NCBI GenBank assembly: GCA_949130485.1
Contig: OX422189.1
Location: forward strand, 9,966,492-10,030,491
DNA from: Agelas oroides
Lineage: Eukaryota; Porifera; Demospongiae; Agelasida; Agelasidae
Length of the DNA stretch: 64,000 nt
Direction: 5' to 3'
Notes under the pieces: generated by a model
Told to the model about the DNA's origin: nothing
The model's input: only the letters and a program-made list of their open reading frames with translations
The model's database searches: none
Made by a program: the position numbers and the translations under genes
In this document: in pieces, positions 1,932-64,000 of the stretch
How positions within the stretch are numbered: the stretch's first letter is position 1
How the letters are laid out: each line of letters opens with the position of its first letter

Positions 1932-1972
1932 AACTACCCGCTGTTGGGCTCGATATAACCCCAAGCACGTAC

Positions 1973-25200: not shown

Positions 25201-28200
25201 CCCTCACACACACCTCCACACCCTCACACACACACCTCCACACCCTCACACACATCTCCACACCCTCACACACATGTATCGTCACACAGGGAGAGATGAC
25301 CCCTACAGGAGCAAAGCACTGGAGTGTTGCTCAGTTCATGACCCCAGACAAGGTAACAGCCAGCCACCACGACTCTTCTCATGCCCAGACCCCACCCTCT
25401 CACAAGGAACTACACAATGTAGGCCTGATGATTGTTGAGTGCTTTCTTGGTGTGTGCCAAGTCAGCAGTATTAGTTACATGAGCTAGAGCTACATGTCAC
25501 AGTCCTATGTACATTATTCTGTCATGGCACAGTAGTATAGAACTTCTGTTGAAGTTACATGGCTTACGATGGAACCTCTCTTGAAGTACATCCCTGAAAT
25601 ATGGACACCTGGTTAATCTGGACACTTGACTGAGTCCCAACTTTATAGTTATTCTCCCCCTGAAATAAGGACACCTCACTAATCAGGACAATTATTTTTG
25701 GTCCCAAGGGTGTCCGTATCAGAGAGGTTCCACTGTAGACCCAGCAGGTAATCACAGCACGTATGAGTCCCCTTGCCTTTAACGGAAGCTCTGCACCTCA
25801 AATGCGGTAACATAATATACAACAGAATAATGTACCTCAGACTGCCACGCATGTATGTTATACGAATGAAAAAAATCATGACTGGCCATGGATACCCAGA
25901 CGCTCTTGCCCAGACGCTACCCTCTCATGCACTAATGCAGAAATCACACAAAGATACTTGACTCAGCATCTAAACACTCAATTGTCATTTCCTCATGAGA
26001 GGGTGGTGTCTGGGGCTAAGAGTGTGATGTAAGGACCTTAAGAGTGTTTCTACTGTATGCTTTCTATATACTCAAGAGCGCATAAGAACAGGCGGCTTGA
26101 GTAAGAGCATACAATTCTGAAACCAGTTGGAATTTACCACCAGTACTAAACATAGTTACACGTACTGCGCATGCTGCGTAACATAAGCCATTGTTGCTAA
26201 GCACGTGACTGGGTGTTCTATTTTTAGTACAGTTCAATAATTTTGACCAGACTATGGGCTTCTATATGGAGTTACACGCTCTTACTCGAGCTGCCCGTTC
26301 TTGTGCGCTCTTGATATATATGTACTATATAGTTATGCACATGCTTATCCCACCTCCATGTAGCCCCCCAGGATGACGGACCAGTCAAAGGAGGAGTACC
26401 GAGAGGCTGCCCACCGGCTATACATGGAGCAGGAGAGGCAGAAGAGAAAGCTACAGAAATTCAGATCCTCCTCTCCTCCCCCTTCCTCCACTAGCTACAC
26501 CACTCCACACTCCACACAGAGGTATATTTAACCTTGACATAGTGGGAGGGGGAATGAGGTGGTTTCGTACACCCCAAGATGCTGGTATATACATGTTCCT
26601 ATTTATCATGGGAACACATCTTGTCGTTTCATCTACCATCATTTCATCTACTATCAGAAAAGCATTCTTGATCGCCTGACATGAGGTCATGGTTCTGATT
26701 TGTGCTTTAACCCTTTAACTTCTAATGACGACTATACTTGTCATCCAACTTTGGCTGCATGCTTGAAAAGATCAGTAGTCTAAAAAGGACCTCGAGAGAA
26801 TATAATTCAATGGTTAAAGGGCTAATATATAGAAGAGCTTTTAAGGTTGCCAGCTTCTTTTGTCTTTCAGCATATTTAAATTAACCAGGCTAATATTACA
26901 CTTTTCATGTAAATGTGAGTGGTGCGCAGAAAACTAAGTTAGAGAACTGGGACAAACTAAGATCTACTGTTCTAGTTAATGATGGATCCCAGGAATACTG
27001 TCTTGGTATACTTGTTCTGGTTATCACACCCACCCACCACTAACACTTGGTTGGATGATAGCTGTACTGCAGTGCAGACATAGCATGGCTCTGGTAGATC
27101 CCCAGTGATAACCCTGACCCAGGAGTTGGTGAGGGGGAGGAAAACGTGGACTGCTCGGGATTGTTTTGCTGGGGAAGGGTGGGTACCCACAGTGAAGAAG
27201 AGGGAGCAGAAAAACGTTAGGGACCCTGCTGCGAGGAAACCAGTTTCGTAATCACCCCCTCCCACAGCTAGGAGATTTCCACTGAGGCTTGCAGCAGCGG
27301 ACTGTATCAGTGGGGTGTCAGGGAGTGTCTTCCAGACTGTCATGTCGCTAGCTGACTGGTGAGTAGGTGAGGTAGCTTTCTGAATGAGGGTGGTAAGAGA
27401 CACGTACAGGACTGTGGTTAGGTCTTTGTCATCAGTACCAACTCCTCCCAGTTGGTACCATGTGTCTGCAATGGTGACAGAGGTCATGCCCAAACAAGGT
27501 ACAGGTAGGGGGTCAGCAGTGTGCCACTGAGAGGTTTCACTGCTGTACACCTCCACAGTGGCACAGAGCACAACCTTGCCATCCCTGGCACCAGTGTACC
27601 CCCCACTGGCGACAATGGCAGACTGGGTAGTGGCAACTGTAAATTGAAGCCTAGCAGTTGGCATAGGTGTGAGGAACTCTCTGGGATTGTTCTTTGAAGC
27701 GATACACTTTACCAGTGATACCAACATGTGGTATCAACCCCCCAACTGTGATGTTTCTTTCAAACGATACATGTATCTGCTGCGAGGAAACCAGTTTCGT
27801 AATCACCCCCTCCCACAGCTAGGAGATTTCCACTGAGGCTTGCAGTTGGTGATGAGGTTTTCTTTGAACTGAGCCATGAAAAATGCAATCACTTTGAGGG
27901 GAGGGAGACGGCTCCACTCGTCCCTGGACGGGTCATACTGGAGGACCTGATTACACTCCTCCTTGCTACACTCACTGATTCCCCCTCCAATGTAGACCTT
28001 CTCCCCCATCACAACAGCCTGTGGTCCCACCATCCCCGCTGGCATATCTGCACACCTCTTCCACTGCAGCTTAGCCTGGGGGTGGAAGAGGTGGGGCTGG
28101 AAGGAAGAAACAATGTTAGTATATACAGCTGACTCCCAGTTTCTTGGTGTATACGTGAACACAGCAAGAAGTGCAATGGTAGAGCACATTTGTTAGGCTC

Positions 28201-29453
28201 TATTCAAACTGGTAACATATATACCTGTGTTTTTATGCCAGACTCAGTAATATGACTGGGCCGACTGTGTATGTGTCGTATGAGGCTTTGAAGTGATAGT
28301 CTCTCCACCTCTGCCCTCAGAGACTCAATTTCAGACTTTGACTCGATACATTTCTCAAACGTTTGAAGCATCTCAACTCGGTTGGTGAATTGCTGGGGGA
28401 ATGCAGACAAGATGGTGTTGACTTGATTGAGGAGGGTTGAAGCCTCAGGCCTCCGAGCTGGAGCATTGCTGAGGCACTGGTGAATCACAGCCATGAGAGG
28501 ATGGTCATTGCCAATCTCCTGGAGATACTCTGCCTTGCGCTCAACTTCAGAGGCAGGGATGATTGCATCTGGGTTTAGTGGATGAGGACGGAACACACCT
28601 CCAGGAAATGGCCACCTTCCACAGAGAATGTGGATGATCAGGACACCATAGGAGTAGATGTCAATTTTTGAAGTGTACTTGGGATGGTCCACCATTGCCT
28701 CTGGTGGCATGTAGCAGGGGGTGCCAGGAGCTTTGGTCTATGTCATCTGGGTCATTCGGGCGGGAGTCAGGTTGAGGATCTTTGCCACCCCCAGGTCCGA
28801 GAGTTTGGCATTCATGTTGGATGTGAGAAGCACATTATTAGCTGAGAGGTCACGGTGTATTATTGGTGGGGATCTCTCATGCAAGTAGCGCAGGCCCAGG
28901 GCCACATCACGCAGTATTCCATAGCTGATCATCTTAGGTAGGACACCATACTTCTCCAGACAGGCAGACAGAGTGGTGTGGAGGTACTCCATCACCAGTA
29001 TGGGGAGCTGGGAGCCCTGTTCATACCACACACCGAGGAACTGTACAATACACGGGTGGTGCAGTCCACCAAGGAGTTCACATTCTCCTGCAAATCGCTC
29101 CAACATGGCTGCCTTCTCACGGGGTGTGGCTGATTCAAACAAAATGCCATGGATCTTCTTGCCCACACATTTCAGACCATGATACTCAAGCTCTTTCACC
29201 ACTGCATACGACCCATGTCCCACCTCTCTACCTGTATCACGAACCCCATCAAGTTCAAACCATCTCAGAGCACCAGCTGCACCTCCTGTGGCCATCTCTG
29301 TGCTTCACAGAAATTGTCCAAAAACCAAAAGGGGTGGGTACACAAAACACTACCTGTTGTCATGGGATCAGTGAGTGTGGAATGCAGGAAGTGGTTATGA
29401 ATATAGTGTAAGGGCACAAGGGCAAATTACTTACAGTATTACATGCGCGCACG

Positions 29454-29538
<85 letters not shown>

Positions 29539-30433
29539 CTCCTCCCACTTTGGTACGCTACCAAAATCAGAAGGGTCCAAAGGAGAGGGGAAAGTCAGAG
29601 AAGGTATGCGACCCAAGGTTGTTGGGAGAAGTCTGCCCAACGAGAGGTACCCTCGTAGCGGGTCCTGGAACTCACACATGAGGATATCCAGTCCTGCGCT
29701 GCCCAGCAAGTACAGCACCCCGCCCCCCGAGCGAGCAAGGTGAGGAGGGAACAAGAAAAGTTGCTAATTCTAGTTCAGTAAAAGAACAGGCCATCTATAG
29801 CCTCGTTCCCAGGAAGCTGGGCGGGGCCTGGAAACGAGGCTAGGCCATCTATGTATGGGGCACCATAACGTACCTTGTAATGATGGCACCACAAAAACAA
29901 AACTATACATCAGGTTAGCCTTAGTACTGTAATAAAAACACCGCTATGTAGCTAAGTGGTGCTTCATTACATGCCAAGAACAACTTACCTGGTGCAATAC
30001 TTGTGGTGTTACTTGCCAGTGGTGCCGGTCTCATTGTGCAGGAGTGACCCTGATGAAGAGAGGGTGATGGAGGAAATGGGGGGAGAGGAACGTCAGAGGA
30101 CCAAGCAGGCAACGAGGGAGGCTGTCAGAGACTTTGTGGTGAGAATGAGGCGGAGGATAGTGAAGTTAACTGGCAATCATGTCCACTGGTTTACACTCTT
30201 ATACCATGTGCTTTGACCCCCTCCCCTAACACACATGCATCCTTTCCTCCCCCCTCACACACTCACACCCTCCACAGATCAAGCGGGCCTCCCACAGTGC
30301 CACTGACCTGCGTTCTACTTCCACTGAAGTGCCGCCTCAGCCCCCACCCAAGAAGAGACCAGTAAGGAGTAGTTTTGAGTAGAGGAATAATTGTGTGCAT
30401 TGTAGTGTATGATTCTAGCTACCTACCTACCTA

Positions 30434-30505
<72 letters not shown>

Positions 30506-33500
30506 CCGCCACTCAACACTGCACAACCATCAACACCAACCGACCACCACCAAACCCCTCGTAAGCTTCAACTGTTTTTCCCCAACCCCAGTGGTCACGA
30601 ATCCAGCGTCTAGAGTCCCCACACCCTCATCCACACTCTAGTTCTGAATATTTTTTGCTTTCTTATTCTCATTTTCATTTTCTCCGGCTTAGTGTATAAG
30701 GATGTAATGGTAGTTGTGTACTGTTCATCGCAGTTGATGACAAGCTGGAATTCGTAGAACGTGACGACATCATAGCATTAATTTTTGCTTTCATTCTTCT
30801 TGTGTGTGTGAGGCGGGTGACAAACTTTCATAAAGACTAGTCCATATTTAGAGCTAGAATCATGGAAGCTCAGCATTTGTAAGCTCACGGCTACATAGGA
30901 TCTTATACATACAGTGTATGTATGTTTTTCAACCACCAAATTTTCATTCAACTAGCCTTACAATTTATCAATCATTTCAAATTCTGAACTAGGAAAACAT
31001 ATTATATTTTGTACATCATTATACATATGTACATATTCTTGTATGGTAGGTTTGTTGGAAGTACTTGTACACTAGAGAATGAGGAGTGTTTGTTAACTCA
31101 GTTCCATTCCATTCCAGTGGTATGGAACTGGAAATGGTCACCAACAAGTTCCATTCCAATCTCGTGAATGTGTATGTTAGGTGAGTCCAAATGAGCTTGG
31201 AGCCTTTTCTGTAGCATGTGTCCAACCACTGGAGTTCTGGATGTTTTCAAAGGAGAAATCTAGTTACTGCTCGTTGGGAACAAACGAAGAACTTAATGCG
31301 TCCTTTCAGTCAGGCACCTCCCCTTGCAGACATTGATTTGACTAACATGATAAATGGTACCAGGTCTCCCACCATTTTAGCACACTGTAAGTGCTAAAAG
31401 AAGGTGGTAAGGCCGGGGGACAAAGCTGTATTGATCATTCCTCATTCTCTAGACACTACGCCACACCTGTGTATTGCTGTGTTTTCCTTGTGACAGTTTG
31501 TACAAATACATAACATATTGTATCTGCAGTTCCAATGCATCTTGCGTGGACCTAATAATGAATCCACTCAAATGGTGTGCATGTGTAGATAGAGCAATAA
31601 GCCATCTTACTATGCCAACAGTGCCATACACCATGAGCTGAACTAATCTCTCGGTACATTCAATCTACATCCAAAACGTGTACCAAAGTGTGTGTCTGTA
31701 ATGGTACTCGGACCATGTGCTGTGTCATACCATCGCCGCAAGAGCCATAAACATTATGTTGTGTACCAATCAGTTTGTGTGGGTCCCATAGAGATGCATT
31801 GGAACTGCCCATGTGTGGCGGGTATTGATTAGCATTCCATTGGTGTTACCATGGCGACACATACTGTGTGTAATGATGGAGTGGAGTGTATCCGAGAGAT
31901 TAGGTTCTGCCCCACATCTTCACAGTTGGCATAGGAAGCTGGTTGCATGGGCTTGCATGTCACAGCGCTCATCAGCTCCTGGTACAGTGTAGCTAGGTGT
32001 TATACTCTCAGAGGTGTTTTGGTGTTACTGTAGGCATTAGTGGGTGCACATGAAGAGCGATGTGCTGAGAGAGTGAAAAATGAGTTCATGGAGAAAATAA
32101 TCAGTCAGCTGGGATTTGAGCCCAAGACCTGAATGCTGTAAGTCGGACACTTACAACAAAGCCACCCCTAAGGATGTAGGAGTGGAAGATGAGCTACATT
32201 AGCAGCATTGCCTAGAGGCCTCAACCAAACTCTCTTCCTGACGTCTGAATTGGCTCTTTTGCTCCACCTTGTGTGTTGATGCTTGGATGGTAAAGAAGCT
32301 TGTCGGGTCTTTGCACTGTCAAAAGGAGTGACTTTCAGATGGTGCTAATGTCATTTATGGTACGTATGGTTGCTAGTCAGTGTGCCAGTGAAGCCTGAGA
32401 ATGTGGGTAAGGTGGTAGCTCTCAGAGAGCAATAGAGTGCGGCATATGTCAACACCAATGAACTGCGGGGCAGAGCCGTGTCCTCTTGTGTGGATACACT
32501 CCAAAACTGTGAGACTGTCACGTGATTGTCACATGCCCTCCTTCAAGGTGATGATGCAGTTAGCCCTGCCTCCTCCCGAGAAGGTAGCATCACACCTACC
32601 AATGAACCTCCACCCATGGAAGAGCCACTTGAAGAACCAATGACACCCAAGGTGGGCAGACCAGACAACTTTCTCAACTCTTAAGTCAGAGACGGGAAGG
32701 GAAGCTTTCGTAATATGGATGTAGAAGAATACGCATGTAGGTGTTTCACCCTAGCTGAGCCTTGTCAGAGCATCAGGTGTTTTTTACGCTGGTTCATTTG
32801 TGCCCAGATGACTGAAGCATTCAGTTACAACGCGGTTAAAAAAGTTTCTAATTTTAAGTTGGTATCAGAGTACCATATTTCTTTGATCAGATTCCGTGGC
32901 TACTATTTATTTCACTGCTTGCTTTTCTGCGGCCACTATTCGAGGGCAGTGTCTATTCGAAGAAATACGGTAGTTTCGTTCCCAGACTCTTGTCCCCAGC
33001 TCTCACTAGTATGGGTGGAAACTGGCTCAGACTGAAGTGATTTCAGCTCTTCTTGTTACACCAACAGGACAGCAACAAGCGTCTCTCATACTCCATGGAT
33101 GACCTGCTTGAAATGGGGGAGAGGGGAGGTGAGGGGGGAGGGAGGAGGGTAACATTCTCCTCCACAGACAACTTGGTCATCTCCCCCTCCCCAGACCACG
33201 ACATGAAACAATCATCACCTCCACCCCAGCAGGAGCAGCAGCAGCCGGAGAAGTGGGGGGCACAAGGTATGTGGATCAGACACTTGGGAAGCCTTACGGC
33301 ACGCCAGGTCCACTATGCAAAGAAATAAAGCGCTTTCCACTCCTATCGTAATCAAACCTTTTGAGCTCATGAAGAACCTGAGCAAGCCCCACACTAGCAA
33401 GTTAAACTACAGGGGTTGCCACACATGGTAAATGCACAGTTCAACTTGGACAATCAAACCGAAAGCTGCTGCCTTCTGTGTCCTGTAAGTAGCCTAGTTT

Positions 33501-34696
33501 GTCTACACAACTTTTAACCCTTTAGGGCCGATAGCGGATTTATCCGCGCAATTAACGTAGTACCGTTTTGTGGCTACTTACTCGGCAGCAATGTGCGACA
33601 AAGAACTGACATTATTGCTGGTAATTTGTTAGTGCTTCCACTCTCTGAAACTGTAGTAATAAGGGCGGGCTAAGGTGCTGAGCATCAGAGCAAGCAGCTG
33701 TTTCGACAGAGATAAGTGTCCAACAAGAATATCGCTCGAACGGTACAAGTAGGAAGGCTTATCTTGGCTTCGTTTTTCGCTTACCTGGAGGAACACTCCT
33801 GATGTGAGTTACTGTAACCCCATTCTCTTCAGCAGCAATGCTAACAGCGGCGGTGAACAAGAAAACAGATGGTTCTATCGAGCAGTGACTTGCACACTTA
33901 CCACATGGCTATCTCAATGATCGTCCCACCTCTTCCTGCCTAGGATAACAGTCATTACAAATAACTACCTGGACATACCCCCGAGGTTTGGACAAGCTCT
34001 AACTATATCACGTTGAGAAATTTTTCAAGATAAATATAGGCCCTAAAGAGTTAATTAAGTTAGGTAAAGTCAATGCTTAAGCTCTAGCTGCCTATGAAGC
34101 CTTAGCTAGCTAGGTGATTTTGCTCTGTATTGCTAGCTCTAGCCTCGTTCCCAGGCTCTCTGTGCCCATGCATGAGAGCCTGGGAAGAGGGACGTGGACT
34201 GAGGGACAGGGACAGGGACAGGCAAGGCTGTGCTTGGTCAGGCTTGCCCCAACAGTATTCTACATTTCCACTGTATGATTTATTACTAATTTACACACAC
34301 AACACAGTGGAACGTCATAAAGAAAGGTCAGTATCAGCGACAGACAGTACAGTGGTAATTGAAGACCTCGAGAACTCTCCTAGTCAGAAGAAGAGGCCTC
34401 TTTCAGCTGGTGAGCAGTTGTAAGGACTGAGAATACGCACATAACAGTTACCTTCCCCAGACGGAACAGCATGAGCCGGCTGAAGGGTGAATGCTGTTCC
34501 GTCTGGGGAATGTAACTTATTTGTTGGATGCTACCCCTAGCAACCCACTGCCACACCCATTACCACCTCCACCCATTCCACTTCGTGTTATTCAAGTTCA
34601 AAGATTTGGTTGCTAAGCAACATCCAACAAACTCGCATACTAGTTGCAATACTACAAACACACACAACACACACACACACAACACACACACACAAC

Positions 34697-34737
<41 letters not shown>

Positions 34738-34760
34738 ACACACACCACACGCACCACACG

Positions 34761-34796
<36 letters not shown>

Positions 34797-34814
34797 ACAC
34801 ACACCACACGCACG

Positions 34815-34849
<35 letters not shown>

Positions 34850-36743
34850 ACACAGGAGACACAGAGTCCCCCTTCCCTGCAGACAGCACATGGCCAAATC
34901 TCAAATCCCCCCACCGCAAGAAGAACAAGGATGTGTTCCGGTTCCTCTCTAAACAGAGTGACACGAACTACACCGTTCGGAGACACCAGCTTCAAATGAG
35001 TCGCATCCTTGAGAAAAATCAACATGTTAAGAAGGTGAGGAGAGGAGGGGAGCAGGAGGAGGGGAGAGAGAGAAGGGAAAAGAGAATAGGGGAAGGGAGG
35101 GAAGTAGATGATCTAGAGAATGTGAAGAGAGAATGTGAAGAGAGAAAGTATAGGGAGGGGAGGAAAGGGGAGAAGGGTGACGTGGAAAGAAGGGAAGGAT
35201 ATGATTGAGAGAGAATTGGAAAAAAAAAAAGAAGAAGAGAGAGGATGGAAAGAGATGAAAGATAATTTTACAAGTACTCTGCACATGCCACAACTTTACT
35301 GGTTAAATGTAACAATATGTCTACTGCACTCTCCATGACTTGTTCTTACCTTATACTCACACTCTTTCAATCCTTCCTCTCCTCTCTCTACCAGTCCATT
35401 GAGTCTATGATGGGTGTGCAGCTCTCAGATGACATTGGGGACTGGATCATGGATGGAGTGCTGGTCTGCCAGGTGGTCAACAAGCTCCACCCAGGAACCA
35501 TCAACACCATCCACACAACTACCGAGGGACAGGTAGTACACCCCAGTAGTTCTCAGTATACCTCAGTAATTCTCAGTATACCTCAGTAGTTCTCAGTATA
35601 CCTGTTGTGTTTACGAGTGTTCAGCGTAGGATTAGAACAGATACTAGACAGAGAGAGAGACCACACAAATGTTCTCATCCAGCTCACGAGGCAGAAGGAA
35701 GATTAATCACATGATCCAGTCATCTGACACATTACATCATACCATGCATACATTACAACAGTACCCAGCACATTACATAACGGTAACTAAGTACAGTTAA
35801 TACAATACCTCAGAAATTCTCAGTATACCCCAGTAATTCTCAGTATACTCCGGTAATTCTCAGTATACCTCAGTAATTCTCAGTATACCCCAGTAATTCT
35901 CAGTATACCTCAGTAATTCTCAGTATACCCCAGTAATTCTCAGTATACCTCAGTAATTCTCAGTACACCCCAGTAATTCTCAGTATACCCCAGTAATTCT
36001 CAGTATACCTCAGTAATTCTCAGTATACCCCAGTAATTCTCAGTATACCCCAGTAATTCTCAGTATACCTCAGAAATTCTCAGTACACCTCAGTAATTCT
36101 CAGTACACCTCAGTAATTCTCAGTATACCTCAGTAATTCTCAGTATACCTGTCGTGTTTACGAGTGTTCAGCGTAGGATTAGAACAGATACTAGACAGAG
36201 AGAGAGACCACACAAATGTTCTCATCCAGCTCATGAGGCAGAAGGAAGATTAATCACATGATCCAGTCATCTGACACATTACATCATACCATGCATACAT
36301 TACAACAGTACCCAGCACATTACATAACGGTAACTAAGTACAGTTAATACAATACCTCAGAAATGCTCAGTATACCCCAGTAATTCTCAGTACACCTCAG
36401 TATAGTAAGCACTACACAATGTGTGAACAGCTGCTAACATTAGTTCATGTCTTCTCCCTCCTAGCCACTGCCTCTTTCAAAGCGGACCATGAACATTGCT
36501 GCCTTCATTGCAGCTTGCAGGAAACTCAACATACCAGAGGAAGAGGTGGGACAGGTCATGTGACAGAGGCATTCTGGTCATGTGACTTTGTGTAGTTGGT
36601 AATGAATGATGGTATTCAAGTGGGTATAATGGTAATTTACACACACACACACACAGCTATGTTCAGCAGGTGACATCATGGAGCTAAAAGATCCTTTGCG
36701 TGTAATCACATGCTTACAGCGAGTACTTGAAACTGCACAGTAG
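19289..36743 (+). CDS. LRCH: LRCH: leucine-rich repeat and calponin-homology protein (20 exons)
   Basis: Exons: 19289-19451, 21897-22041, 22870-22996, 23409-23514, 23768-23904, 24208-24389, 24501-24588, 25290-25352, 26364-26521, 29539-29739, 30042-30138, 30278-30361, 30506-30560, 32548-32651, 33068-33266, 34308-34409, 34856-35034, 35395-35532, 36465-36545, 36657-36743. Phases agree throughout; total 2496 nt (831 aa). Exons 1-5 encode LRRs (VLNLSGRNL, LTSLNLSNNRLVSLP, LRVADNPLESPP) and exon 6 the LRR cap (VRGLVHISKYLESL). A charged helix (EEYREAAHRLYMEQERQKRK) and a basic, Pro/Ser-rich middle follow. Exons 18-20 are the CH domain (DWIMDGVLVCQVVNKLHPG, MNIAAFIAACRKLNI, DPLRVITCLQRVLETAQ-stop). 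Mammalian LRCH proteins bind DOCK-family GEFs and affect septin/actin organisation. A possible AATAAA is at 36907. An unrelated kinase-kelch gene occupies the intron before exon 10. Exons 10, 13, 17 and 20 have (CA)n directly before the acceptor. Confidence 0.93.
19834..20209. mobile_element. MITE with about 34-bp terminal inverted repeats
   Basis: Left end AGGCCACTCCAAATGAGACT TTAGTTTCCCGTCC and right end GGACGGGAAACTA TAGTCTCATTTGGAGTGGCCT are reverse complements apart from a few bases. It lies in LRCH intron 1, about 376 bases, no ORF. The interior is GC-rich near the right end (GGGGGCGGGCGG). Confidence 0.8.
20215..21424 (+). other. LRCH intron 1, no identifiable feature
   Basis: Mixed-composition intron. 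Within it, TTGAAGGCTGATGG / TTGAAGGCTGGTGG plus a TGATTGAGCATG word near 20970-21100 is duplicated. No coding exon or RNA is supported. Confidence 0.5.
21425..21674. mobile_element. MITE family 1, copy 3
   Basis: Full-length relative of the copy at 7448: CAAGAGCGCATAACAACAGG at the left, GCCTGTTCTTATGCACTCATG at the right, same interior. In LRCH intron 1. Confidence 0.85.
22645..22868. repeat. C/T tract before LRCH exon 3
   Basis: About 220 bases of CCTTCCTCTCCTCCCTC-type sequence on the coding strand, ending at the CACAG acceptor at 22869. Similar tracts precede exons 4 (23215-23408) and 6 (23938-24200). Confidence 0.85.
24629..25043. mobile_element. Long fold-back element with 10-bp target duplication
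   Basis: Begins TAGCCTAGTTCCCAGGCTTC and ends GGCCTGGGAACGAGGCTA. Inner arms also pair (TTTGCACTCACAATAATACACGG versus CCGTGTATTATTGTGAACGCAAA; CATCACGTGA versus TCACGTGATG). A poly-G run sits at 24767-24788. ACAGAGGGCT flanks both ends (24619-24628, 25044-25053). The terminal motif is shared with the tiny elements at 15572 and 29798. In LRCH intron 7. Confidence 0.88.
25076..25275. repeat. About 20-bp minisatellite (CACACACACCTCCACACCCT)
   Basis: Eight to ten units with CA-length variation, directly upstream of the LRCH exon 8 acceptor (25289). Confidence 0.85.
25565..25737. mobile_element. MITE with TACAGTGGAACCTCTCT ends
   Basis: Left end TACGATGGAACCTCTCTTGA, right end AGAGAGGTTCCACTGTA, inverted. 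An internal word (CCTGAAATAWGGACACCT) occurs twice. Ends begin with TA, consistent with a Tc1/mariner-like TA target, which is inference. In LRCH intron 8. Confidence 0.7.
26073..26313. mobile_element. MITE family 1, copy 4
   Basis: CAAGAGCGCATAAGAACAGG at the left, CCCGTTCTTGTGCGCTCTTG at the right, interior as in the other copies but in the orientation of copy 2. It ends about 50 bases before LRCH exon 9. Confidence 0.85.
26708..26824. mobile_element. Small TTAACCCTTTAAC element
   Basis: TTAACCCTTTAAC at 26708 and GGTTAAAGGGCTAA at about 26813 form inverted ends around about 100 bases. The shape matches the larger TTAA element at 33518. The right flank CTAA would be a decayed TTAA. Confidence 0.45.
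26972..29295 (-). pseudogene. Kinase-kelch unit A, nested in LRCH intron, broken
   Basis: The kinase exon 29295-28225 starts MATGGAAGAL and has GHGSYAVV (G-loop), KCVGKKI (lysine), IIHRDLSANN and LSDLGVAK. It is interrupted by an in-frame TAG at 28740-28738, where every other unit has a Gln codon (QMT-stop-TKAPGTPCYMPPEA). The tail donor is ACACAG|GTATAT at 28225; the kelch exon starts at 28096 (PHLFHPQAKLQWKRCADMP). The kelch frame is broken near 27778-27848 by an insertion that copies 27228-27297, a later blade of the same gene. It lies wholly between LRCH exons 9 and 10, antisense to LRCH. A truncated kinase (about 185 aa) could still be made. Confidence 0.85.
29449..29538. repeat. (CA)n tract abutting LRCH exon 10 acceptor
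   Basis: About 80 bases of pure CA on + after a short CGCACGCAC stretch, ending ACACAG|CTCCTCC at the LRCH exon 10 acceptor. There is no pyrimidine tract between the repeat and the AG. Confidence 0.9.
29798..29842. mobile_element. 45-bp fold-back element with 9-bp target duplication
   Basis: TAGCCTCGTTCCCAGGAAGC ... GGGCCTGGAAACGAGGCTA (about 20-base inverted arms), flanked by GGCCATCTA at 29789-29797 and 29843-29851. It is little more than two terminal repeats, yet has a perfect direct repeat. Between LRCH exons 10 and 11. Confidence 0.9.
30435..30505. repeat. (CA)n tract abutting LRCH exon 13 acceptor
   Basis: About 70 bases of CA ending CACACAG|CCGCC at the 3' splice site of exon 13. Confidence 0.9.
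30561..32547 (+). other. LRCH intron 13
   Basis: About 2 kb with no supported gene. The stretch about 31490-31680 (TTGTGACAGTTTGTAC ... GGTACATTCAATCTACA) recurs at 47905-48065 in the kinase-kelch cluster. The stretch 32055-32165 contains AGAGAGTGA and GGGATTTGAGCCC, related to the element at 1771. Confidence 0.6.
33518..34050. mobile_element. piggyBac-like non-autonomous element with TTAA duplication
   Basis: Left: TTAA (33514-33517) then CCCTTTAGGGCC. Right: GGCCCTAAAGAG then TTAA (34051-34054). TTAA targets with CCYTTT-type termini are the signature of piggyBac-family elements. 533 bases, no transposase ORF. In LRCH intron 15. Confidence 0.75.
34138..34187. mobile_element. Fold-back element, family TAGCCTCGTTCCCAGG
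   Basis: TAGCCTCGTTCCCAGGCTCTC and GAGAGCCTGGGAAGAGGGA flank TGTGCCCATGCAT. The right end is imperfect and no clear target duplication was found. Confidence 0.6.
34655..34850. repeat. Compound (CA)n tract before LRCH exon 17
   Basis: About 195 bases of CA interrupted by ACACCACAC and GCACGCAC words, ending CACACTGACACAG at the exon 17 acceptor (34855). Confidence 0.9.
35545..36410. repeat. 20-bp minisatellite interrupted by a duplicated 210-bp block
   Basis: Units of CAGTAATTCTCAGTATACCY fill about 35545-35600, 35812-36147 and 36355-36410. A non-repetitive block of about 210 bases (TGTTTACGAGTGTTCAGCGT ... GTTAATACAATACCTCAGAAA) occurs at 35605-35815 and again at 36152-36362, nearly identical. 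It lies in LRCH intron 18, splitting the CH domain. A remnant (CTCAGTATACTAAGCACT) precedes the exon 19 copy at 46175. Confidence 0.9.
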
Positions 36744-39062
36744 ACCACACCCCTCTCCTCACTGTCCCACCACTCCCTAGATTATACTAATAACTGTGAA
36801 AGAAAACATTAATTTCAATTTAGAGAGAATCATCTTGAACATGCAACATGAGATTGCTTAGCATATGTGATGTTATTACATGCAATATGGATGTGCTGTG
36901 TGGTAAAATAAACCTTTTCTGTTTCCATGTTAGTTTGGTTACTTGCATGTGATATGTACTGTGGCTGAAATTGAGCCATTCAGTAGACCCATATGGTGTA
37001 TCTAACACTTAGCAATTATAACACCCAACCACTAGTTCTTCTAGAAAAAGTCTCACTTGTACTCATGTGCTAGAAAGAATCCAGCAGCATCGACCCCTCT
37101 TCTGAGGTATAAGGTACATAAGTACATTCTAAACATGGTAATTTTAGCTACTAATGGCCACAATAACAAGGCCAAAGTGGCGGTAGATAGCTGGACTTTA
37201 GATGAGACTAGTTTCTGTAGCCAGTCACAGGTTGGGAGTTTAAAGGAGCCGAAACCTGTGATTGTGCAAGGATCAGACTGGGGACTCCCTTGACAACCAG
37301 CAAAAGAAAACCATGAACTGGAAGCAGCAGAACATTATAATATAACTATAATGCATTTATAGAGTCTCTTTTTATTCTGTATAGTATATCACACACAAAC
37401 ATACGCCCACCAGGGCCACCCCCCCCCCCCAAAAAAAAAGAACAATTCATCTCATTTTTAATGACTCAAGGTACAATGGACAAGTTCCCTGCCACCCTCC
37501 TTAACAGGAAGACTCTCAAACACACACAACCATCAACACCACCAAACCCCTCATAAGCTTCAACTGTTCTTCTAACTTGTTCAATGATGACTGTTATATA
37601 CCATTATGTAGCTATACCAGCTCTTTGTCTAACAACAATGGTCTATGACCCTCTTCCTTACACATAATTCAGTGACTAATCAAATTGTAGTAGAACCCGC
37701 GAGCCAAAGGGTTCCATACTACACACAGCTTTTGGAGGGTGGAATGAAGGATGAAGGGTGCCTGGGGACACAGTAGATTAGGCTGAGATGATGGTGCACC
37801 CTGAACAATCCTCTCACATGCTATATTTTGGAAATCTTTCCCTGAACTGAAGCAGTGTGGGGAGTGGGTGACTGGGTGGGTTATGCTCACTGCGTCCTGC
37901 CCAACCTTCAGAAATGGTGGAGCCATACGTATGACTCCTGTCACACAACCCCAGGCTCTGGATCCTCCTCCTTAGTGGGGACAGTCTTATGAAAGGTAAC
38001 CTCGCACCAGAACGTATAGTTTACTGTCCGTCTTAGCACTGACATTGGAGTGGTTTTATGTTGCTCACTCATCGACGACAAAACTATGCACGGTTTGTGG
38101 TGGGTTAAAAATAGCATAAAACAGACCAACACAATACAAATGTTCTGAGTAGGCAGATTGGAGGAGGGTGGCTATTTATAGAACTACCATATTTAGAGGG
38201 AAAAAAAACTGAAATGTATCAAGTATACAAAACTAAGGCTATAAGTATTTTGAACCAAACAAGGTTAAAGAGTATTTTGAACTGAATACAAAATTGTGTG
38301 GTAAAACAAACCTTTCTGTTTCCGTGTTAGTTACTTGCATGTGATATGTACTGTGGCTGAAATTGAGAAGTCGGTTGATGCACTTTTTTCTGGTTACTTT
38401 TAGTTGCCCGTATATAGTATTATGGCTACAATTCAGAAATTCGTGGTGAATCCACCCACACAGGTGATAACCCTGTCTGATTTTATCTCTGCATTACCTG
38501 AAGTTAAAGCTAAATGCATGTTCCATATCATTCGTTTAACTGCCTTACTATACAATTACCTTCCTATTCACTTGTCTCCAACATAGTTAATTATGATGGC
38601 AAACTTAAACCTGTTTGACATCATAATTATGGGAACTGTGCTCTGTACATATTTACATGTGCATGTACACTGCAGTGACCCCACCCCCACACACACCTCC
38701 TCATGATGACAGACTAGGAGAGGCAGAAGAGAAAGCTACAGAGGTTCAAGTCCTCCTCACCTCTCAGTCTACCACACCCCTCCACACTCCACACAGAGAT
38801 ACAACTAAACACAGGAAGGAAGCTTAAGGGTGAGTAAGGGCTAGTGTAAATTAGTTGGCACAATGTATTTAAGTCAGTAACATGTAATTGTAAACAGCAC
38901 AGTAGAAAACACTACTACAAGGGTAAACAACACAAGTCTGGAACATTCTTTAGCTAACTCTGCAGCAGACCTCTGATGTAAATTGTGAAAAAGCCTGACC
39001 TTTGTGGCAAAAAATAGTTGTACAAGATAAGGTGGTGCACAGAAATCTGTACTATGACCGTT
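36744..39062. other. LRCH 3' flank with decayed LRCH copies
   Basis: Holds a possible LRCH poly(A) signal (AATAAA, 36907), then pieces copied from LRCH. 37525-37560 matches exon 13 (AACCATCAACACCACC), with the donor GTAAGC changed to ATAAGC. 38716-38806 matches exon 9 (GAGAGGCAGAAGAGAAAGCTACAG). The stretch 38300-38380 repeats 36915-36990. 37620-38620 is duplicated at 41690-42590. No intact gene is visible. Confidence 0.7.
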
Positions 39063-46174: not shown

Positions 46175-46255
46175 CCACTGCCTCTTTCAAAGCGGACCAT
46201 GAACATTGCTGCCTTTATTGCGGCTTGCAGGAAACTCAACATACCAGAGGAAGAG
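46175..46255 (+). pseudogene. Copy of LRCH exon 19 (CH domain)
   Basis: 81 bases reading PLPLSKRTMNIAAFIAACRK, nearly identical to 36465-36545 and with the same CCTCCTAG acceptor. The donor changed from GAG|GTGGGA to GAG|TTAGGA, so it cannot splice as in LRCH. No exon 18 or 20 partner is nearby. Confidence 0.85.
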
Positions 46256-46335
46256 TTAGGACAGGTCATGTGACAGAGGCATTCTGGTCATGTGACTTTG
46301 TGTAGTTGGTAAAGATGATGGTATTATGGCAATTT

Positions 46336-46866
<531 letters not shown>

Positions 46867-48344
46867 CACACACACACACACACACACATGCGCACACGTA
46901 CACGCATGCACACGCACACGTGCACACACACACACACACACTCTCTCTCTCTCTGAGTCCACATAACAACATTAACCAAAATTAGATAAGTCACACAACT
47001 TGTAGATAACAATTAGTGATCCCACCCAACCAATTAACAATCATATCATAGCCTACCTATGACATCATGATCATGAGAAAAGGTCAGTCACATGTAGAAG
47101 AGAAAGAAGAGAGATAGACTAAAGAGAAGAATCTAGCAGCATCCATTGCCTTCCTAAGATGTAAGTCATAAAAGTATAAAAGAAAGTAGCAAAACTATGC
47201 TAAATGCACACAATATCCATATAGCTAGGTACTACGTAGCTCAGCTTGATAGTACTCTGTACAGTATATCACACACAAACAAGCACCTCCAAAGAAGAAT
47301 TTGAAAAAAAAAACAATGATTTTGTTTTCACTGACTCAACACGTTCCTTGCAACCCTCCTTAACAGGAAGACTCTCAAACACACATGCACACACACACAA
47401 CACATACACTAGCTCTGAGCTAGCAAGGGGGAAGTGAGAGGGGAGGGTAGAGAGGAGGAAGAAAAAGAGGGAGGAGTGAATAGTAAGAGTTACTATTCGA
47501 GTCCAAGGGAAAAAAATAAATAAATATGTCAGAGGTATCAAAGTACATCTTGTAGTTATGTACCACAAAACAAATAATTCAGGTTGACCTAGGTCCTATA
47601 GATAGAGCACGTATTAAATAGCTACAGCCTGCTTGTGGCTTAGTACTGCTTTTATTACACAGAAATTGATGTATCAAAAATGCCCTCACCTGTTGTTATA
47701 CTTTTATGATATTACTTGGGCTATGAAAGTGGTTCCTCTGTCTAAGTAAAAAACAGGCCTCCCCCATCTTGTCTTAGTGTGTCTGTAAGCATGCAGTCAA
47801 AAACTGGGCAGTAGAAGGCCCAGGAATGAAGCTAAGTTGAGCATCCCTTGTTTTCAAGATGATACTCCACACCTTTGCAATACTGTACATTGTGTATTAC
47901 TATTTGGTTTGTGACAGTTTGTGCAAGTACATAACATATTGTATGTGCAGACAAGTACGTACATCTTACGTGGACCAAATGGTGGATAGAGCAATAAGCC
48001 ATCTTACTGTGCCAACAGTGCCATACACCATGAGCTGAACTAATCTTTCGGTACATTCAATCTACACACAAGAAGCATTGGTCAAAGTGTGCTAACACAT
48101 GTCCAGGATCTGTGTATATAGCTACACCCAGCTAAATGAGTTGTTGACCATATTAAATATTGTACTTTCCATGCCATCCCTACTCAGAGCTCGAGAGAGT
48201 CTACCAACTCTCTGATGTGCTGATTTAAAATTTTTCACCAGACAGAGCGCTCGACATACGACCAATTGCCTTGTGCATGTGACATGCGCACAGAATAAAC
48301 TTGAACTTAATGAGTGAAGTGGTACAGAAATATGTAACACAAGA

Positions 48345-51268: not shown

Positions 51269-51929
51269 CTTTCAAAACACAAATCACTGCAGAGAAGCAC
51301 AATTCTGTTCTCCACTATGGAATGCAGGAAATGGTTATGAATACATTCACAGGAAGAGTTAGGCAAGATGAAACTTTCACAAATTAAAGCACATGCTTAC
51401 AGAATTGCACTGTTTACCACACACACACACACACACACAATTTATTACATTAACCAGCAGGATGCATCTTGCAAGACTCATGCTCAGACTCCATGCACCC
51501 TCTGATATGGTGCTGTATAACTATACAGCGTACATACTCACCCTCTGGCTGCAGGTGGAGTAAACATGCAGGTGGAATGAATTCTAATTAGTTCCTACCA
51601 TAAGATGGTATCTCTTAAACTTTTACGGTTTATGTGAACTGTAGCTTACACAGCTACTTGTACATGTGCATGCATACCCTCCCCTCCACAGGATGACAGA
51701 TCGTTAAAGGAGGAGTAAATGGAGTAGGAGAGGTAGAAGAAAAAGTTCCAAGTCCTTTGACCTCCCACTCACTCTGCCAACTACACTAGACCCCTCTGCA
51801 CTCCACACAGAGATGCAGCTATAAACACAGTGATATATTATTTGCAAAAGAGTTGTGTACAAAAAGGTTGGGAAATGTGGGAGCAGAGAAACTGACTGGA
51901 ATTGAGTAAACATCAATCTAATGTGTGTT
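51269..51929. other. Spacer D-D' with LRCH exon 9 copy
   Basis: About 51690-51815 copies LRCH exon 9, with stops (ATGACAGATCGTTAAAGG, GAGTAAATGG) and frameshifts. The rest is unremarkable, with a short CA run at 51420-51438. Confidence 0.65.
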
Positions 51930-52711
51930 GTAAATCCCCAGTGGTGACCCTGACCCAGAAGTCAGTGAGGGGGAAGAAAATATGGATTGCTGCAGAGGCC
52001 AAGGTTTCATCATGCCCTCCCACAGCTAGGAGGTTTCCATTCAGGTTTGCTGCAGCAGATCCCATCAGTAGGGTGTCAGGGAGGGTCTTCCAGACTGATA
52101 TATGGCTAGCTGACTGGTCAGTAGGTGAAATAGCTTTCTGAACGAGGGTGTTAAGAGGAGCGTACAGGACAGTGGCTATGGTATGTCCTTGTCATCACCT
52201 CCCCCAAGTTGATACCAGATATCTGCAATAGCGACAGAGGTCATGATCCCACAAGGTACAGGTAGGGAGTCAGCAGTGTGCCACTGAGAGGTTTCACTGT
52301 TGTACACCTCCACAGTAGCACAGGGCATAGCCATGCCATCTCTGAAACCAGTGCTACTGGCGACAATGGCAGACTGGGTGGTGGCAACTGAAAGGTGATA
52401 TCTAGCAGTTGGCATGGGTGTGAGAAATTCTTCGGTTGTTCTTTGAAGCGGTGCACTTTACCATTAAAACAACCATTTCATATCCTACAGTGATGAGGTT
52501 TCCTTCAAACTGAGCCATGCCAAAGGCAACAATATGGTGGGGAGGGAGACGACTCCATTCATCCCTGGATGGGTCATACTGTAAAACCTGATTAAAATCG
52601 CTAACAATGTCAGTAACACCCCCTCCTATGTAGACCTTCTCTCCCATCACAACAGCTTGTGCTTTTGACATCCCCACTGGCATATTTGCACGCTCCTTCC
52701 ACTGCAGCTTG
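51930..52711 (-). pseudogene. Kelch-only unit D', frameshifted and lacking its kinase
   Basis: Starts with the kelch exon 5' part (LQWKERANMPVGMSKAQAVVMGEKVY) with no kinase exon upstream. The frame shifts near 52440 (after NLITV, where GG and several residues are missing) and again near 52180 (DDKDIP then stop). The last blade and stop region are absent. The sequence is closest to unit D (shares MPVGMSKAQA). Confidence 0.8.
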
Positions 52712-53783: not shown

Positions 53784-55659
53784 CTAGATGGTGATGGATC
53801 CCAGGAATACTCTCTTTGTACGCATGAGCTGGTTATCCCTCCCACCAACCACTAACAGTTGATTGCATGATAGCTGTACTGCTGCACCAGCACGACATGG
53901 CTCTGGTAGTTCTCCAGTGGCGACCCTGACCCAGGAGTTGGTGAATGGAAGAAAAACGTGGACTGCTTGGGAGGAAGGAATTCCTAGATTGTACCCTCCC
54001 ACAGCTAGGAGGCTTCCACTCAGGCTTGCTGCAGCAGATGTCCTTAGTGGGGCATCAGGAAGGATCTTCCAGACTGACATGTCACTAGCTGACTGGTGAG
54101 TAGGTGAGGTAGCTTTCTGAATGAGGTCGGTAAGATGAGCGTACAGGACAGTGGGTATGTTTATGGTATCAGCACCAATTCCCCCCATTTGGTACCAGTT
54201 ATCTGCGATGGTGACAGAGGTCATCATCCCACAAGGTACAGGTAGGGGGTCAGCAGTGTGCCACTGAGAGGTTTCACTGCTGTACACCTCCACAGTAGTA
54301 CATACTGCCTTACCACCAGTGAACCCCCCACTGGCAACAATGGATGATTGAGTTGTGGCTACTGAAGGTGAACACCTAGCAGTAGGCATGGGTTTCAAGA
54401 ACTCCTCCCATTTTGCTGATCTCTCGTTGAAGCAATACACCTTGCCAGTGACACCAGCATGTATCTTACCCCCCACTGTAATAAGATATCCTGCAAACTG
54501 ATCCATGGCAAAGAGTCCCGCTTGGCAGTGAGGGAGACAGCTCCACTCATCCCTAGATTCGTCATACTGGAAGACTTGATGACCATCCTCATCAGTTTCA
54601 GTGAACCCCCCTCCTGTGTAGATCTTCTCCCCCAGCTTAACAGCCTGTGGCAAAATCACCTCCACTGGCATATCAGCACATCTCTTCCACTCCACTTTTG
54701 CCTGGGGGTTGAGGAGCTGTGGCAGGAAGGAGGGAACAATGTCGCTATAATATAGCTGACCAACTTTTCCTGGGGGCCAGTAAAAAGGATGTTTTATTCA
54801 CAAGATGACTAAAATCACATCTTGTGCTTTTGAATTGTCCTATTAGTATGTCCCACACTGCCTGCTTTCATGAACTTTCATGTATACCTCATGTGTAAGT
54901 TGAAAACTTGTAGTGTGTGTTAACATAACTTGTTTATCTACTTCCTATTTCCTGTGTACACTCAGATGATAATATACCTGGTTTTGCATGTTGGGCTCTC
55001 TGATAAGGCTGGGCTGTTTGTGTGCCTCTCATAAGGAGCCTATTTCTGACTGCTCTGACTCAATTTTTTGGTATGTGTCAACAGGCGTCTTGATACGTGT
55101 CTCAAACTGTTGAAGTTGTTGGAGCATCTCGACGCGGTTAGTAAATGGTTGGGGAAGTGTAGACAAGATGGTGCTGATTCGATCAAGAAGAGTCGGAGCC
55201 TCAGGCCTTCGAGCTGGCACATTGCTGAGGCACTGGCGAATCACAGCCATGAGAGGATGGTCATTGCCAATCTCCTGGAGATACTCTGCCCTGCGCTCAA
55301 CTTCAGAGATTGGAATCACTGCATCTGGGTTTTGTGGATCAGGACGAAATACGTCCTCAGGAAAAGGCCACCTTCCACAGAGGGTGTGGATGATCATGAC
55401 GCCATAAGAGTAGATGTCGATCTTTGAGGTGTATTTTGGCTTTGCTGTGAGAGCCTCTGGTGGCATATAGCAGGGAGTCCCAGGTGCTTTGGTCTGTGTC
55501 ATCAGAGACATTTGCGCGGGAGTCAGGTTGAGGATCTTTGCCATCCCTAGATCTGCGATTTTGGCACTCATGTTGGACATAAGAAGCACATTATTGGCTG
55601 AAAGATCACGGTGTATTATTGGTGGGGATCTCTCATGCAAGTAGCGCAGGCCAAGGGCT
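53784..55659 (-). pseudogene. Kinase-kelch unit E: N-lobe lost at a CA repeat
   Basis: Homology to sister kinases starts abruptly at about 55658 (ALGLRYLHERSPPIIHRD). Everything upstream (G-loop, lysine, αC, hinge) is replaced by a short unrelated stretch and a 180-base CA tract. HRDLSANN, IADLGMAK and GTPCYMPPEA remain. The tail has a deletion that shifts the frame (SEIGSL-stop near 55029). The kelch exon 54716-53784 is open (311 codons, LLNPQAKVEWKRCADMP ... VFLGSITI). A catalytic kinase is impossible; a kelch product is conceivable. Confidence 0.82.
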
Positions 55660-57064
<1,405 letters not shown>

Positions 57065-59876: not shown

Positions 59877-62756
59877 CTAGTTAATGATGGATCCCAGGAA
59901 TACTGTCTTGGTATACTTGTTCTGGTTATCACACCCACCCACCACTAACACTTGGTTGGATGATAGCTGTACTGCAGTGCAGGCATAGCGTGGCTCTGGT
60001 AGATCCCCAGCTGTGGCTCTTAACCGGGAATTGGTGAGGGGAAGGAAAATGTGGACTGCTGTGGAGGCAGGAGTTTTGTCATAGTACCCTCCCACAGCTA
60101 GGAGGTTTCCACTCAGGCTTGCTGCAGCAGAAAGCTTCAGTGGAATATCAGGGAGGGTCTTCTGGACAGACATTTGGCTAGCTAACTGGAAAGGAGGTGA
60201 GGTGACTTTCTGAAGAGGAGTGTACACGACAGTGTTGATGCCCTTGCCATCAGTATCAGCCCCCCCCAGTTGGTACCAAGTATCTTCAGTGGTGACAGAG
60301 GTCATGATCCTACAAGGTACAGGTAGGGGGTCAGCAGTGTACCACTGTGATCTTTCACTGTTGTACACCTCCACAGTAGCGCAAGGTACAGCCATGCCAT
60401 CCCTGAAACCAGTGCTCCCCCCACTTGCGACAATGGTGGACTGGGTGGTGGCAACTGAAAGGTAACACCTAGCAGTTGGCATGGGTTTGAGGAACTCCTC
60501 CCATTTGTGGGATTCTTCTTTGAAGCGATACACTTTGCCAGTGAAACCACCACCACGTGGTATCCCGCCCCCCACTGTGGTGAGGTTTCCTTTAAACGGA
60601 GTCATGGCAAAAACAACTACACTGTGCGGAGGAAGACGGCTCCACTCATTCCTGGATGGGTCATACTGGAAGACCTGCTTACGATCCTCACCACGCTCAG
60701 TATCTCCCCCTCCCATGTAGATTTTTTCTCCCATCGTAACAACCTGTGGCCTGTACATTGGCACCGGCATATCAGCCCACCTCTTCCAATGCAGCTTGGC
60801 CTGGGGGTGGAGGAGCTGGGGCTGGAGGGAGGGAACAATAACACCTTTAGTAAAGTTATGGTGTGTTTTTACTTGCTGCACATGTGCAACTGCTAGCTAG
60901 CTACCTTCCCAACTTCTAGTTTGGTTTGATCACTTATAGTTCTGTAATCATGGAGGGTGCATGGGAGCCGGGAAGGCCTAGGAACGACTTTATGCAACTG
61001 TTATACAAGCCATTGTGATAGTGTAGCTACATGCTATCATGAACAACACACAACTTTTACTATCTTCTGTACAATAAATGTTGGCATAACCACTTTAGCG
61101 TGTACTCATGGGTACCTGATTTTGTATGTTGGCCTGTTTGGTATGGTTGGGTTGACTGTGTGCCCGTTGTGAGGGGCTTCGAACTGATAACCTCTCCACC
61201 ATAGCCCTCAGAGACTCAATTTCAGATTGGTTTGAGTCAATTTCTGATTGCTTCGACTGGATATGCACTTGGAACTGTTGAAGCATCTTGACTCGGTTTG
61301 TGGGGAGTGCAGACAAGATGGTGTTGACTTGATCAAGGAGGACTGGAGCCCCAGGTCTCTGAGCTGGCATGTTACTGAGGCACTGGCATATCAGAGCAAT
61401 AAGTGGATGGTCGTTACCAATCTCCTGGAGATACTCAGCCCTGCGCTCAACTTCAGAGACAGGGATGATTGCATCTGGGTTTTGTGGATCAGGACGGAAT
61501 GAATCCTCGGGAAATGGCCACCTTCCACAGAGGGTGTGGATGATCAGGACACCATAGGAGTAGATGTCAATCTTTGAGGTGTATTTTGGTTTTGCCGTGA
61601 GAGCTTCTGGTGGCATGTAGCAGGGAGTCCCAGGTGCTTTGGTCTGTGTCATCTGGGTCATTCGGGCAGGGGTCAGGTTGAGGATCTTTGCCACCCCCAG
61701 GTCCCAGTGGCGTAGGAACCGTAGCGGCCGTAGCGGCTTTGGCCGCTACACTTTTTAGGGCGCAAATTAATATTCATAACCTGCTAAAATTACTATAATA
61801 GCTAAAGCTAGCCTCGTTCCCTGGGAACGAGCCTAAGCTCAAGCAGCCTCTTCGTTGCACCAGTCTCATATGCAGTTACATGCGTACATTTCCGCTTAAA
61901 GTACACTACAAAGCAATCAAAATCTTGGCAGTGAGATGGCTAGGTACGAGGCTAGTGCACATTTTCACAGAGACCTACTACTACAAGCGACGAAAGCTGG
62001 GCGGTCTCCTGGGAACAACGACGAAGTCAGTACGTATAATCTTACTGTTTTTCAAATATTTTACTGGACGGTTGGGAAGGTCTGAAAGCTTATACCCTTG
62101 AAAAAAGGCTTTATTTTGCAGTCTAAAGGTGCACACTTTGAAAAAATTCGCCGCCGCGCTATGCGCGGCGAAATTATTTAACATTTTTTCCGCCACGCTT
62201 CGCGCGGTACAACATGGCATCTACACTTCAAATTTGCTTCCTACGCCTATGCCAGGTCCGACAGTTTGGCATTCATGTTGGACGTGAGAAGAACATTATT
62301 GGCTGAAAGATCACGGTGTATGATTGGTGGGGATCTCTTGTGCAAGTAGCACAGACCAAGTGCCACGTCACACAGTATTTCATAGCTGATCTCCTCGGGT
62401 AGGACACCATTCCTCTCCAGACAGATGGACAGGGTGGTGTGGAGATACTCCATCACCAGTATGGGGAGCCGGAAATCCTGCTCATACCACACACCGAGGA
62501 ACTGCACAATACATGGGTGGTGCAGTCCACTGAGGAGTTCACATTCTCCTGCAAATCGCTCCAACATGGCTGCCTTCTCATGTGGCATGGCTGATTCAAA
62601 CAAAATGCCATGGATCTTCTTGCCCACACATTTTAGACCATGATACTCAAGCTCTTTCACCACTGCATATGACCCATGTCCCACCTCTCTACCTGCATCA
62701 CAAACCCCATCAAGTTCAAGATGCCTCAAAGCACTGGCTGCTCCTCCTGTGGCCAT
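59877..62756 (-). pseudogene. Kinase-kelch unit G, kinase exon split by a transposon
   Basis: The kinase exon 62756-61116 starts MATGGAASALRHLELDG and reads through HRDLSANN to LSDL, where a 547-base element (61705-62251) interrupts the LSDLGVAK loop; the frame resumes at GVAKILNLTPARM. Apart from the element and its duplicated 8 bases, I see no other lesion. Donor CAG|GTACCC at 61116; kelch exon 60821-59877 (314 codons plus stop) is open with six blades. The last roughly 110 bases match unit A almost perfectly. Translation into the element stops just after NAKLSDLA. Confidence 0.88.
61705..62251. mobile_element. hAT-like non-autonomous element in kinase G, 8-bp target duplication
   Basis: Ends CAGTGGCGTAGGAACC and GCTTCCTACGCCTATG are inverted. 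CCAGGTCC lies on both sides (61697-61704 and 62252-62259) but once in sister genes. An 8-bp duplication with CAGTGGCGTAG termini is typical of hAT elements. The interior has GC-rich palindromes (GCCGCCGCGC..GCGCGGCG; GTAGCGGCCGTAGCGGC) and a nested 27-base TAGCCTCGTTCCCTGGGAACGAGCCTA hairpin at 61809-61835. No transposase. Confidence 0.93.
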
Positions 62757-62845
62757 CTTTCTATTTCACAAATTTAATGCAGAGAAATGATGGATCCATA
62801 TACATTGTTATCATGTGATCTGTGAACTATCTGTAGAATGTTGTA

Positions 62846-63712: not shown

Positions 63713-64000
63713 TTAGAAGACATAAAAGTCTGCTCGAGACCCCAGGAATACCGTCTTGGTATGCTTGTCTTGGTTATCTTTCCCACCAACAACTAATACT
63801 CGATTGGATGATTGCTGTACTGCAGTGCAGGCATGACGTGGCTCTGGTAGATTCCCAGTGGTGGCTCTGACCCAGGAGTTGGTGAGAGGGATAAAAATGT
63901 GCACACTTGGGGAGGCAGGGGTTTTGTCACTGTATCCACCTATAGCTAGGAGGTTTCCACTCAGGCTTGCTGCAGCAGACGACTTCAGTGGGGTGTCAGG
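63713..64000 (-). CDS. Kinase-kelch unit H, last blades of kelch exon (cut by window edge)
   Basis: Only the 3' end is present: frame open from 64000 through TPLKSSAAASLSGNLLAIGG-like sequence, then WVRATTGNLPEPRHACTAV, VLVVGGKDNQDKHTKTVFLGS. It ends with RADFYVF instead of the usual ITI, owing to local sequence change before the stop. The kinase exon would lie beyond the window, so intactness cannot be judged. Confidence 0.75.
   Translation of the reverse strand, partial: PDTPLKSSAAASLSGNLLAIGGYSDKTPASPSVHIFIPLTNSWVRATTGNLPEPRHACTAVQQSSNRVLVVGGKDNQDKHTKTVFLGSRADFYVF

Follow-up and report, generated by a model that had tools for sequence, protein, structure and literature searches.

A slice of an LRCH gene, running from the exon numbered 9 here to or past the 3′ end of the gene, was probably duplicated together with a kinase–kelch gene nested within it, and this duplication seeded part of a tandem kinase–kelch array in the sponge Agelas oroides; we put the probability of this reading at about 0.8. 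The window referred to throughout is the whole stretch of 64,000 nucleotides that was analysed, C7:9966492-10030491 of a 259-Mb assembly in 141 contigs. Exon numbers are labels taken over from an earlier sequence-only reading of the window, and the limits of LRCH are approximate. The parts of the host gene that the argument uses are as follows.

19256..36743 (approximate), + strand: LRCH host gene, from open stretches; LRR exons, then CH-domain exons
26362..26524, + strand: exon 9, where copies begin and the duplicated slice probably has its left edge; the open frame runs up to a GT
~29538..29740 (approximate limits), + strand: exon 10, preceded by a CA repeat (29450-29537)
30505..30580, + strand: exon 13 block, preceded by a CA repeat (30435-30504)
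36396..36655, + strand: CH-domain exon and flanking intron sequence, from which the relic at 46104 derives
36870..36975, + strand: piece after the presumed LRCH stop codon, with similar pieces at 38295 and 42318

LRCH genes are characterized by leucine-rich repeats followed by a C-terminal calponin-homology domain, and the hand-joined exons of the host encode both: the LRR exons match Pfam LRR_8 (9.7e-19), and the CH exons match Pfam CH (1.4e-10) and the calponin 1 structure (6.8e-9). Within the CH-domain intron a 314-base stretch is doubled (35535-35848 and 36082-36395, 97% identity), and one open reading frame is common to both copies, which may represent a duplicated exon. A repeat of ~250 bases occurs in both orientations at 7448-7683, 12775-12987, 21425-21674 and 26073-26321, one copy lying directly upstream of exon 9, near the left edge of the slice. 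Upstream of the gene, 11501-12125 is a tandem repeat with a period of ~54 bases, copies ~91% alike and one frame open.

The kinase–kelch units of the window lie on the − strand, the first within LRCH and the others downstream of it; B, D, F and H are free of stops in the alignment.

26972..29295, − strand: unit A, the nested passenger; three stops in the alignment, one within the kinase and two within the kelch part
39063..41354, − strand: unit B; kinase and kelch frames without stops in the alignment
43162..45369, − strand: unit C; kinase broken, kelch open
48345..51268, − strand: unit D; open
51886..52683, − strand: D′, a kelch remnant
53784..55658, − strand: unit E; kinase without its first 131 residues
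57065..59449, − strand: unit F; no clear LRCH relic
59877..62756, − strand: unit G; kinase split in two, without a clear LRCH relic
63737..64000, − strand: unit H; runs past the window end

Unit A is a nested antisense gene, on the opposite strand between the LRCH exons at 26362-26524 and ~29538-29740, as the sequence-only reading had placed it. Its kelch part contains an exact 69-base direct repeat (27226-27294 and 27777-27845).

We searched LRCH (19000-37530, with unit A masked) against the spacers of the array (10,335 unmasked bases; E<=1e-5) and obtained 14 matches, all on the same strand and none on the opposite one. Three control queries, window 1-18900 and two downstream stretches of 18-19 kb, each returned no match to the same spacers, so the LRCH-like fragments are real and above chance. 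When LRCH was searched against the region at 66-144 kb, a target that includes 3315 masked bases, five matches were found (three same-strand, two opposite), from 19.8-20.2, 21.4-21.6 and 26.1-26.3 kb; the slice itself, exon 9 to the 3′ end, contributed none. Among the 14 spacer matches, those at 45885 and 47304 belong to a repeat family present on many contigs, that at 46886 is a bare CA repeat, and that at 55768-55893 is mainly CA repeat passing into exon 10. Alignment and profile searches gave the following relics and spacers.

37525..37572, + strand: exon 13 stub (nhmmer E 1.5e-8; alignment)
37573..38539, + strand: spacer X, first copy
38709..38801, + strand: exon 9 relic of unit B (nhmmer E 2.2e-21)
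41541..41659, + strand: exon 13 relic of unit B with the CA repeat before it (exon 13-like part 41584-41659); 93% to 30462-30580
41660..42592, + strand: spacer X, second copy (~1 kb)
42625..42801, + strand: exon 9 relic of unit C, its start tandemly doubled by a 56-base duplication
46104..46352, + strand: relic of the CH exon (‘exon 19’) between C and D; 90% to 36396-36655
47891..48066, + strand: relic of LRCH intron 31468-31669, out of order; 76%
51691..51814, + strand: exon 9 relic of D′ (nhmmer E 3.1e-34, this relic being part of the profile; BLAST E 0.012)
55881..56000, + strand: exon 10 relic of unit E, following a CA repeat (55686-55866)

All six LRCH-like fragments named beforehand (38709, 42625, 51691, 41584, 46104 and 55881) are thus genuine, and they lie on the side expected from the host: exon 9 relics are on the kelch side in four of four cases (B, C, D′ and the distant unit I described below), and relics of exon 13 (B and I) or exon 10 (E) are on the kinase side in three of three, including in the inverted copy. 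At B, D′ and I the GT donor that follows exon 9 in the host is missing from the relic. In unit E the shortened kinase abuts the CA repeat, and the exon 10 relic follows. Orientation is uniform (14/14), whereas order is broken in the spacer between C and D, where the piece from 36.4 kb stands ahead of the piece from 31.5 kb. Between the kelch end and exon 9, units A and B have no sequence in common, and unit A carries a dispersed repeat there.

The extent of the slice can be read from what recurs. Relics begin no more than a few tens of bases before exon 9, and six LRCH exon stretches upstream of it returned only themselves in the genome search, that is, they are single-copy; we therefore place the left edge at exon 9. 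Exon 10, exon 13, the CH exon and ~100 bases from beyond the presumed stop codon are all represented among the relics, so the slice would have reached the LRCH end or gone past it. This departs from the earlier claim that only LRCH pieces adjoining the nested gene recur: the CH exon, 7 kb away from unit A, recurs, as do 31468-31669 and 36870-36975, and exons 11 and 12 have no copy in the array spacers. The core of the proposal, a slice of LRCH carrying the gene rather than the gene alone, agrees with the blocks, their side and their orientation, but the slice exceeds the intron. The 1-kb spacer X that follows the exon 13 stub differs between its two window copies by 13% on average, poorly aligned stretches included, and seven of ten full 100-column windows differ by less than 10%. 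We considered spacer X as DNA from downstream of LRCH and ruled this out: the stub at its left edge makes it part of the repeated unit.

The best evidence for the slice duplication is a mirror image. Unit I lies on the + strand at C7:10.298 Mb, 290 kb from B, and its relics are reversed together with the unit: an exon 13 relic ~215-290 bases before the kinase start with spacer X beyond it, and, ~0.5 kb past the kelch match, an exon 9 relic followed by the start of another spacer X. Units B and I are sisters in both the kinase tree (80/95) and the kelch tree (100/99). In both, a CA repeat near the kinase precedes the exon 13 relic. The exon 9 relic of I is partly expanded into a minisatellite (L018 about 4670-5005).

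Ages are less uniform than had been predicted. The K2P distance from LRCH to the exon 9 relics is 0.19 (B), 0.17 (C), 0.39 (D′) and 0.08 (I, over 39 sites), and to the exon 10 relic of E it is 0.37, a rough value from an indel-rich alignment; at fourfold sites, the kinase of A is at a distance of 0.21 from B, 0.31 from C, 0.40 from E and 0.23 from I. Relic and unit are thus of roughly equal age where exon 9 stands beside B or C and exon 10 beside E. The exon 13 relics (0.07 for B, 0.04 for I), the CH exon relic (0.05) and the post-stop piece (0.03-0.04), by contrast, differ from LRCH by ~3-7% and look younger than exon 9 and the kinases; the 31468 piece is at 0.13. The spread is compatible with duplication in several rounds, with gene conversion involving LRCH and with uneven constraint alike.

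The coding parts look mosaic. Shared runs of informative sites exceeded every shuffle for 20 kinases (p <= 0.002, 500 shuffles; 20 of 25 rows, leaving out kinases C and E and three outgroups) and for 17 kelch sequences (p <= 0.0033, 300 shuffles; 17 of 22 rows, leaving out D′ and four Q units with kelch partly fetched). Such long runs are as expected from conversion or recombination, and uneven rates along the sequence may add to them. The kinase tree was accordingly dropped as a clock: well-supported branches number 6 of 22 in the kinase tree and 3 of 19 in the kelch tree, from which the kelch of P was left out, and the coding parts look mosaic.

It could be argued from this mosaic structure, from the unlike divergence of spacers and kinases, and from the CH-exon and 31468 relics that stand without matching neighbours, that LRCH fragments were duplicated by themselves and that kinase–kelch units later spread into the debris or replaced each other by gene conversion. 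We consider this quite unlikely, since an exon 9 relic and an exon 10 or 13 relic flank B and I as they do in LRCH, and C, D′ and E on one side, and since the whole set at unit I is inverted together. Still less probable is an assembly artefact in which haplotype copies were joined in tandem. Some repeated pieces are only 3-6% apart, and differences of this size fall within the heterozygosity of some marine animals; each piece, however, sits in a different context, pairs of kinases are 8-17% divergent when all sites are counted, and unit I lies at a distance of 290 kb.

Genome searches showed that the repeats of the array hold pieces of the neighbouring gene that, among the matches listed, are absent elsewhere in the genome. 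The matches listed for exon 9 are the host, B, C and C7:10300669 (− strand), the weaker D′ relic being found by local search only; the DNA search is insensitive near ~70% identity, and this relic escaped the exon 9 query. For the exon 13 block they are the host and B, together with the stub (at 37537) and C7:10297501. The CH-exon, exon 10 and 31468 pieces have one copy each beyond the host, all in the array, among the matches listed (the candidates scored being the best 40 of 297 in the search that took in the CH-exon block and the best 40 of 57 in the one that took in exons 10 and 13 and the 31468 piece). Many copies across contigs were seen for 37212-37528 and, among the matches listed, for none of the specific blocks; the stretch 32400-35540, for which the best 40 of 1722 candidates were scored, returned repeats and says little. 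That LRCH-like pieces are dispersed repeats present by chance in both LRCH and the spacers, which holds for the matches at 45885, 46047 and 47304 within a genome-wide repeat, is extremely improbable for the rest: the exon 9, exon 10, exon 13, CH-exon and 31468 blocks occur only beside the kinase–kelch family among the matches listed, 14 of 14 matches lie on one strand, and the mirror copy is inverted with unit I. Among the matches listed, the proposed slice duplication thus passes the genome-wide comparison that the sequence-only reading had named as a possible refutation.

LRCH homology is not wholly confined to the kinase–kelch family, since exon 12 (30270-30342) has eight relatives (79-83%) at C7:9.299-9.561 Mb, outside the kinase–kelch cluster and 0.4-0.7 Mb away on the same chromosome. 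Three of the eight were read (L043 780-855, L044 508-582 and L045 548-622), and all three lie near pieces of another kinase family, with weak (39-47% identity) matches to the kinase query. The exon 12-like piece itself looks like an exon, since a GT donor-like sequence follows it in three of three cases and an AG acceptor precedes it in at least one.

How much of the family the duplication explains is a separate matter. Kinases that share 75% identity or more with the kinase of unit D occupy 22 loci, the halves of G counted as one, all at C7 9.736-10.299 Mb and on both strands; adding D′ gives 23 units, a lower bound. Besides A, LRCH relics accompany 5 of 22 units (B, C, D′, E and I). The other 17 have no clear relic: D, F, G, H, J, K, M, N, O, P and seven Q units (C7:9.736-9.770 Mb), with flanks of 0.3-1.5 kb read at each of J to P and the Q units read as an unbroken 39.75 kb. 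Unit D, counted here as relic-free, has an ambiguous 31468 piece near its kelch end. The idea that LRCH relics mark the family throughout was rejected, since no profile match with E below 1 was obtained at 13 distant units. A kinase clade of A, B, C, E and I is likewise rejected (p-AU 2.8e-5), in a test whose assumptions sequence exchange violates. Because 17 of 22 units are relic-free and the clade is rejected, slice duplication is well supported for part of the array (B, C, D′, E and I) but does not explain, as had been suggested, how the family as a whole grew. Elsewhere in the genome, dense clusters of other kinase-domain matches, mainly on one strand, lie at C15:1.23-1.49 Mb and C8:4.86-5.94 Mb.

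These observations allow us to propose a course of events, the order and recombination route of which are conjectural. At the outset, the intron separating LRCH exons 9 and 10 would have housed a kinase–kelch gene in antisense orientation. Duplication would then have placed, downstream of LRCH, a block that started at exon 9, took in this passenger and extended to or beyond the 3′ end of the host gene. Units B and C, the kelch remnant D′ and the truncated unit E could have arisen by exchange between direct repeats, for example two spacer X copies around B. Unit I would be a B-type copy placed in inverted orientation 290 kb away. Superfluous LRCH pieces would have decayed or been deleted; recombination between the CA repeats at 29450-29537 and 30435-30504 may explain why B and I keep exon 13 and lose exons 10-12. 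Some kinase–kelch frames would have remained open while their coding parts swapped sequence among copies.

A wider version of this account can be imagined, in which the entire cluster (at least 23 units) descends from a single antisense passenger of the LRCH intron, host exons hitch-hiked early and were erased in most copies, the founder died, and exchange kept its descendants diverse. LRCH might further have been a repeated exon donor to neighbouring kinase families, as exon 12 would hint, and the exon 13 relic of B and I might have been taken up as a control sequence. The last suggestion stems from this relic, which lies within 310 bases of the kinase start on its upstream side, differing between B and I at only 2 of 76 sites, against 15% of fourfold sites in the two kinases. 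Taken jointly, we regard these extensions as unlikely.

The duplication of an LRCH slice appears to be a clear, readable case of a familiar kind, for which the yeast CUP1 locus with its part of RSC30 would be a precedent. In the CUP1 tandem arrays, YHR054C is the terminal 1 kb of RSC30, and CUP1 lies inside RUF5 in opposite orientation (PMC4232551). Both loci share tandem gene repeats carrying a truncated piece of a neighbouring gene, and a gene within another gene in opposite orientation; the CUP1 repeats are short and uniform (1.2-2.0 kb; PMC4232551), whereas those in the sponge are irregular, decayed and of greater length, with a multi-exon protein-coding host as donor. In Drosophila, tandem Sdic repeats are derived from the flanking genes sw and AnxB10 and undergo unequal crossing over and widespread gene conversion (PMC7475035); pieces of flanking genes and conversion would be common to both systems, but Sdic is itself a chimeric gene made of those pieces (PMC7475035), whereas the LRCH pieces are known here as relics. 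Another antisense nested gene copied together with its host is found among the LRRTM genes, which lie in alpha-catenin introns and were duplicated with them; some lineages went on to lose either the host or the passenger (PMC3933685). There, whole alpha-catenin hosts are kept in most lineages (PMC3933685), whereas an LRCH 3′ slice would have been copied locally and reduced to relics.

For the kinase–kelch family, the LRCH pieces serve as bar codes for the breakpoints and orientation of duplications whose coding parts, scrambled by exchange, cannot be ordered by a tree alone. The principle is already known from CUP1 and Sdic, and the locus offers a usable test case for the amplification of a nested gene.
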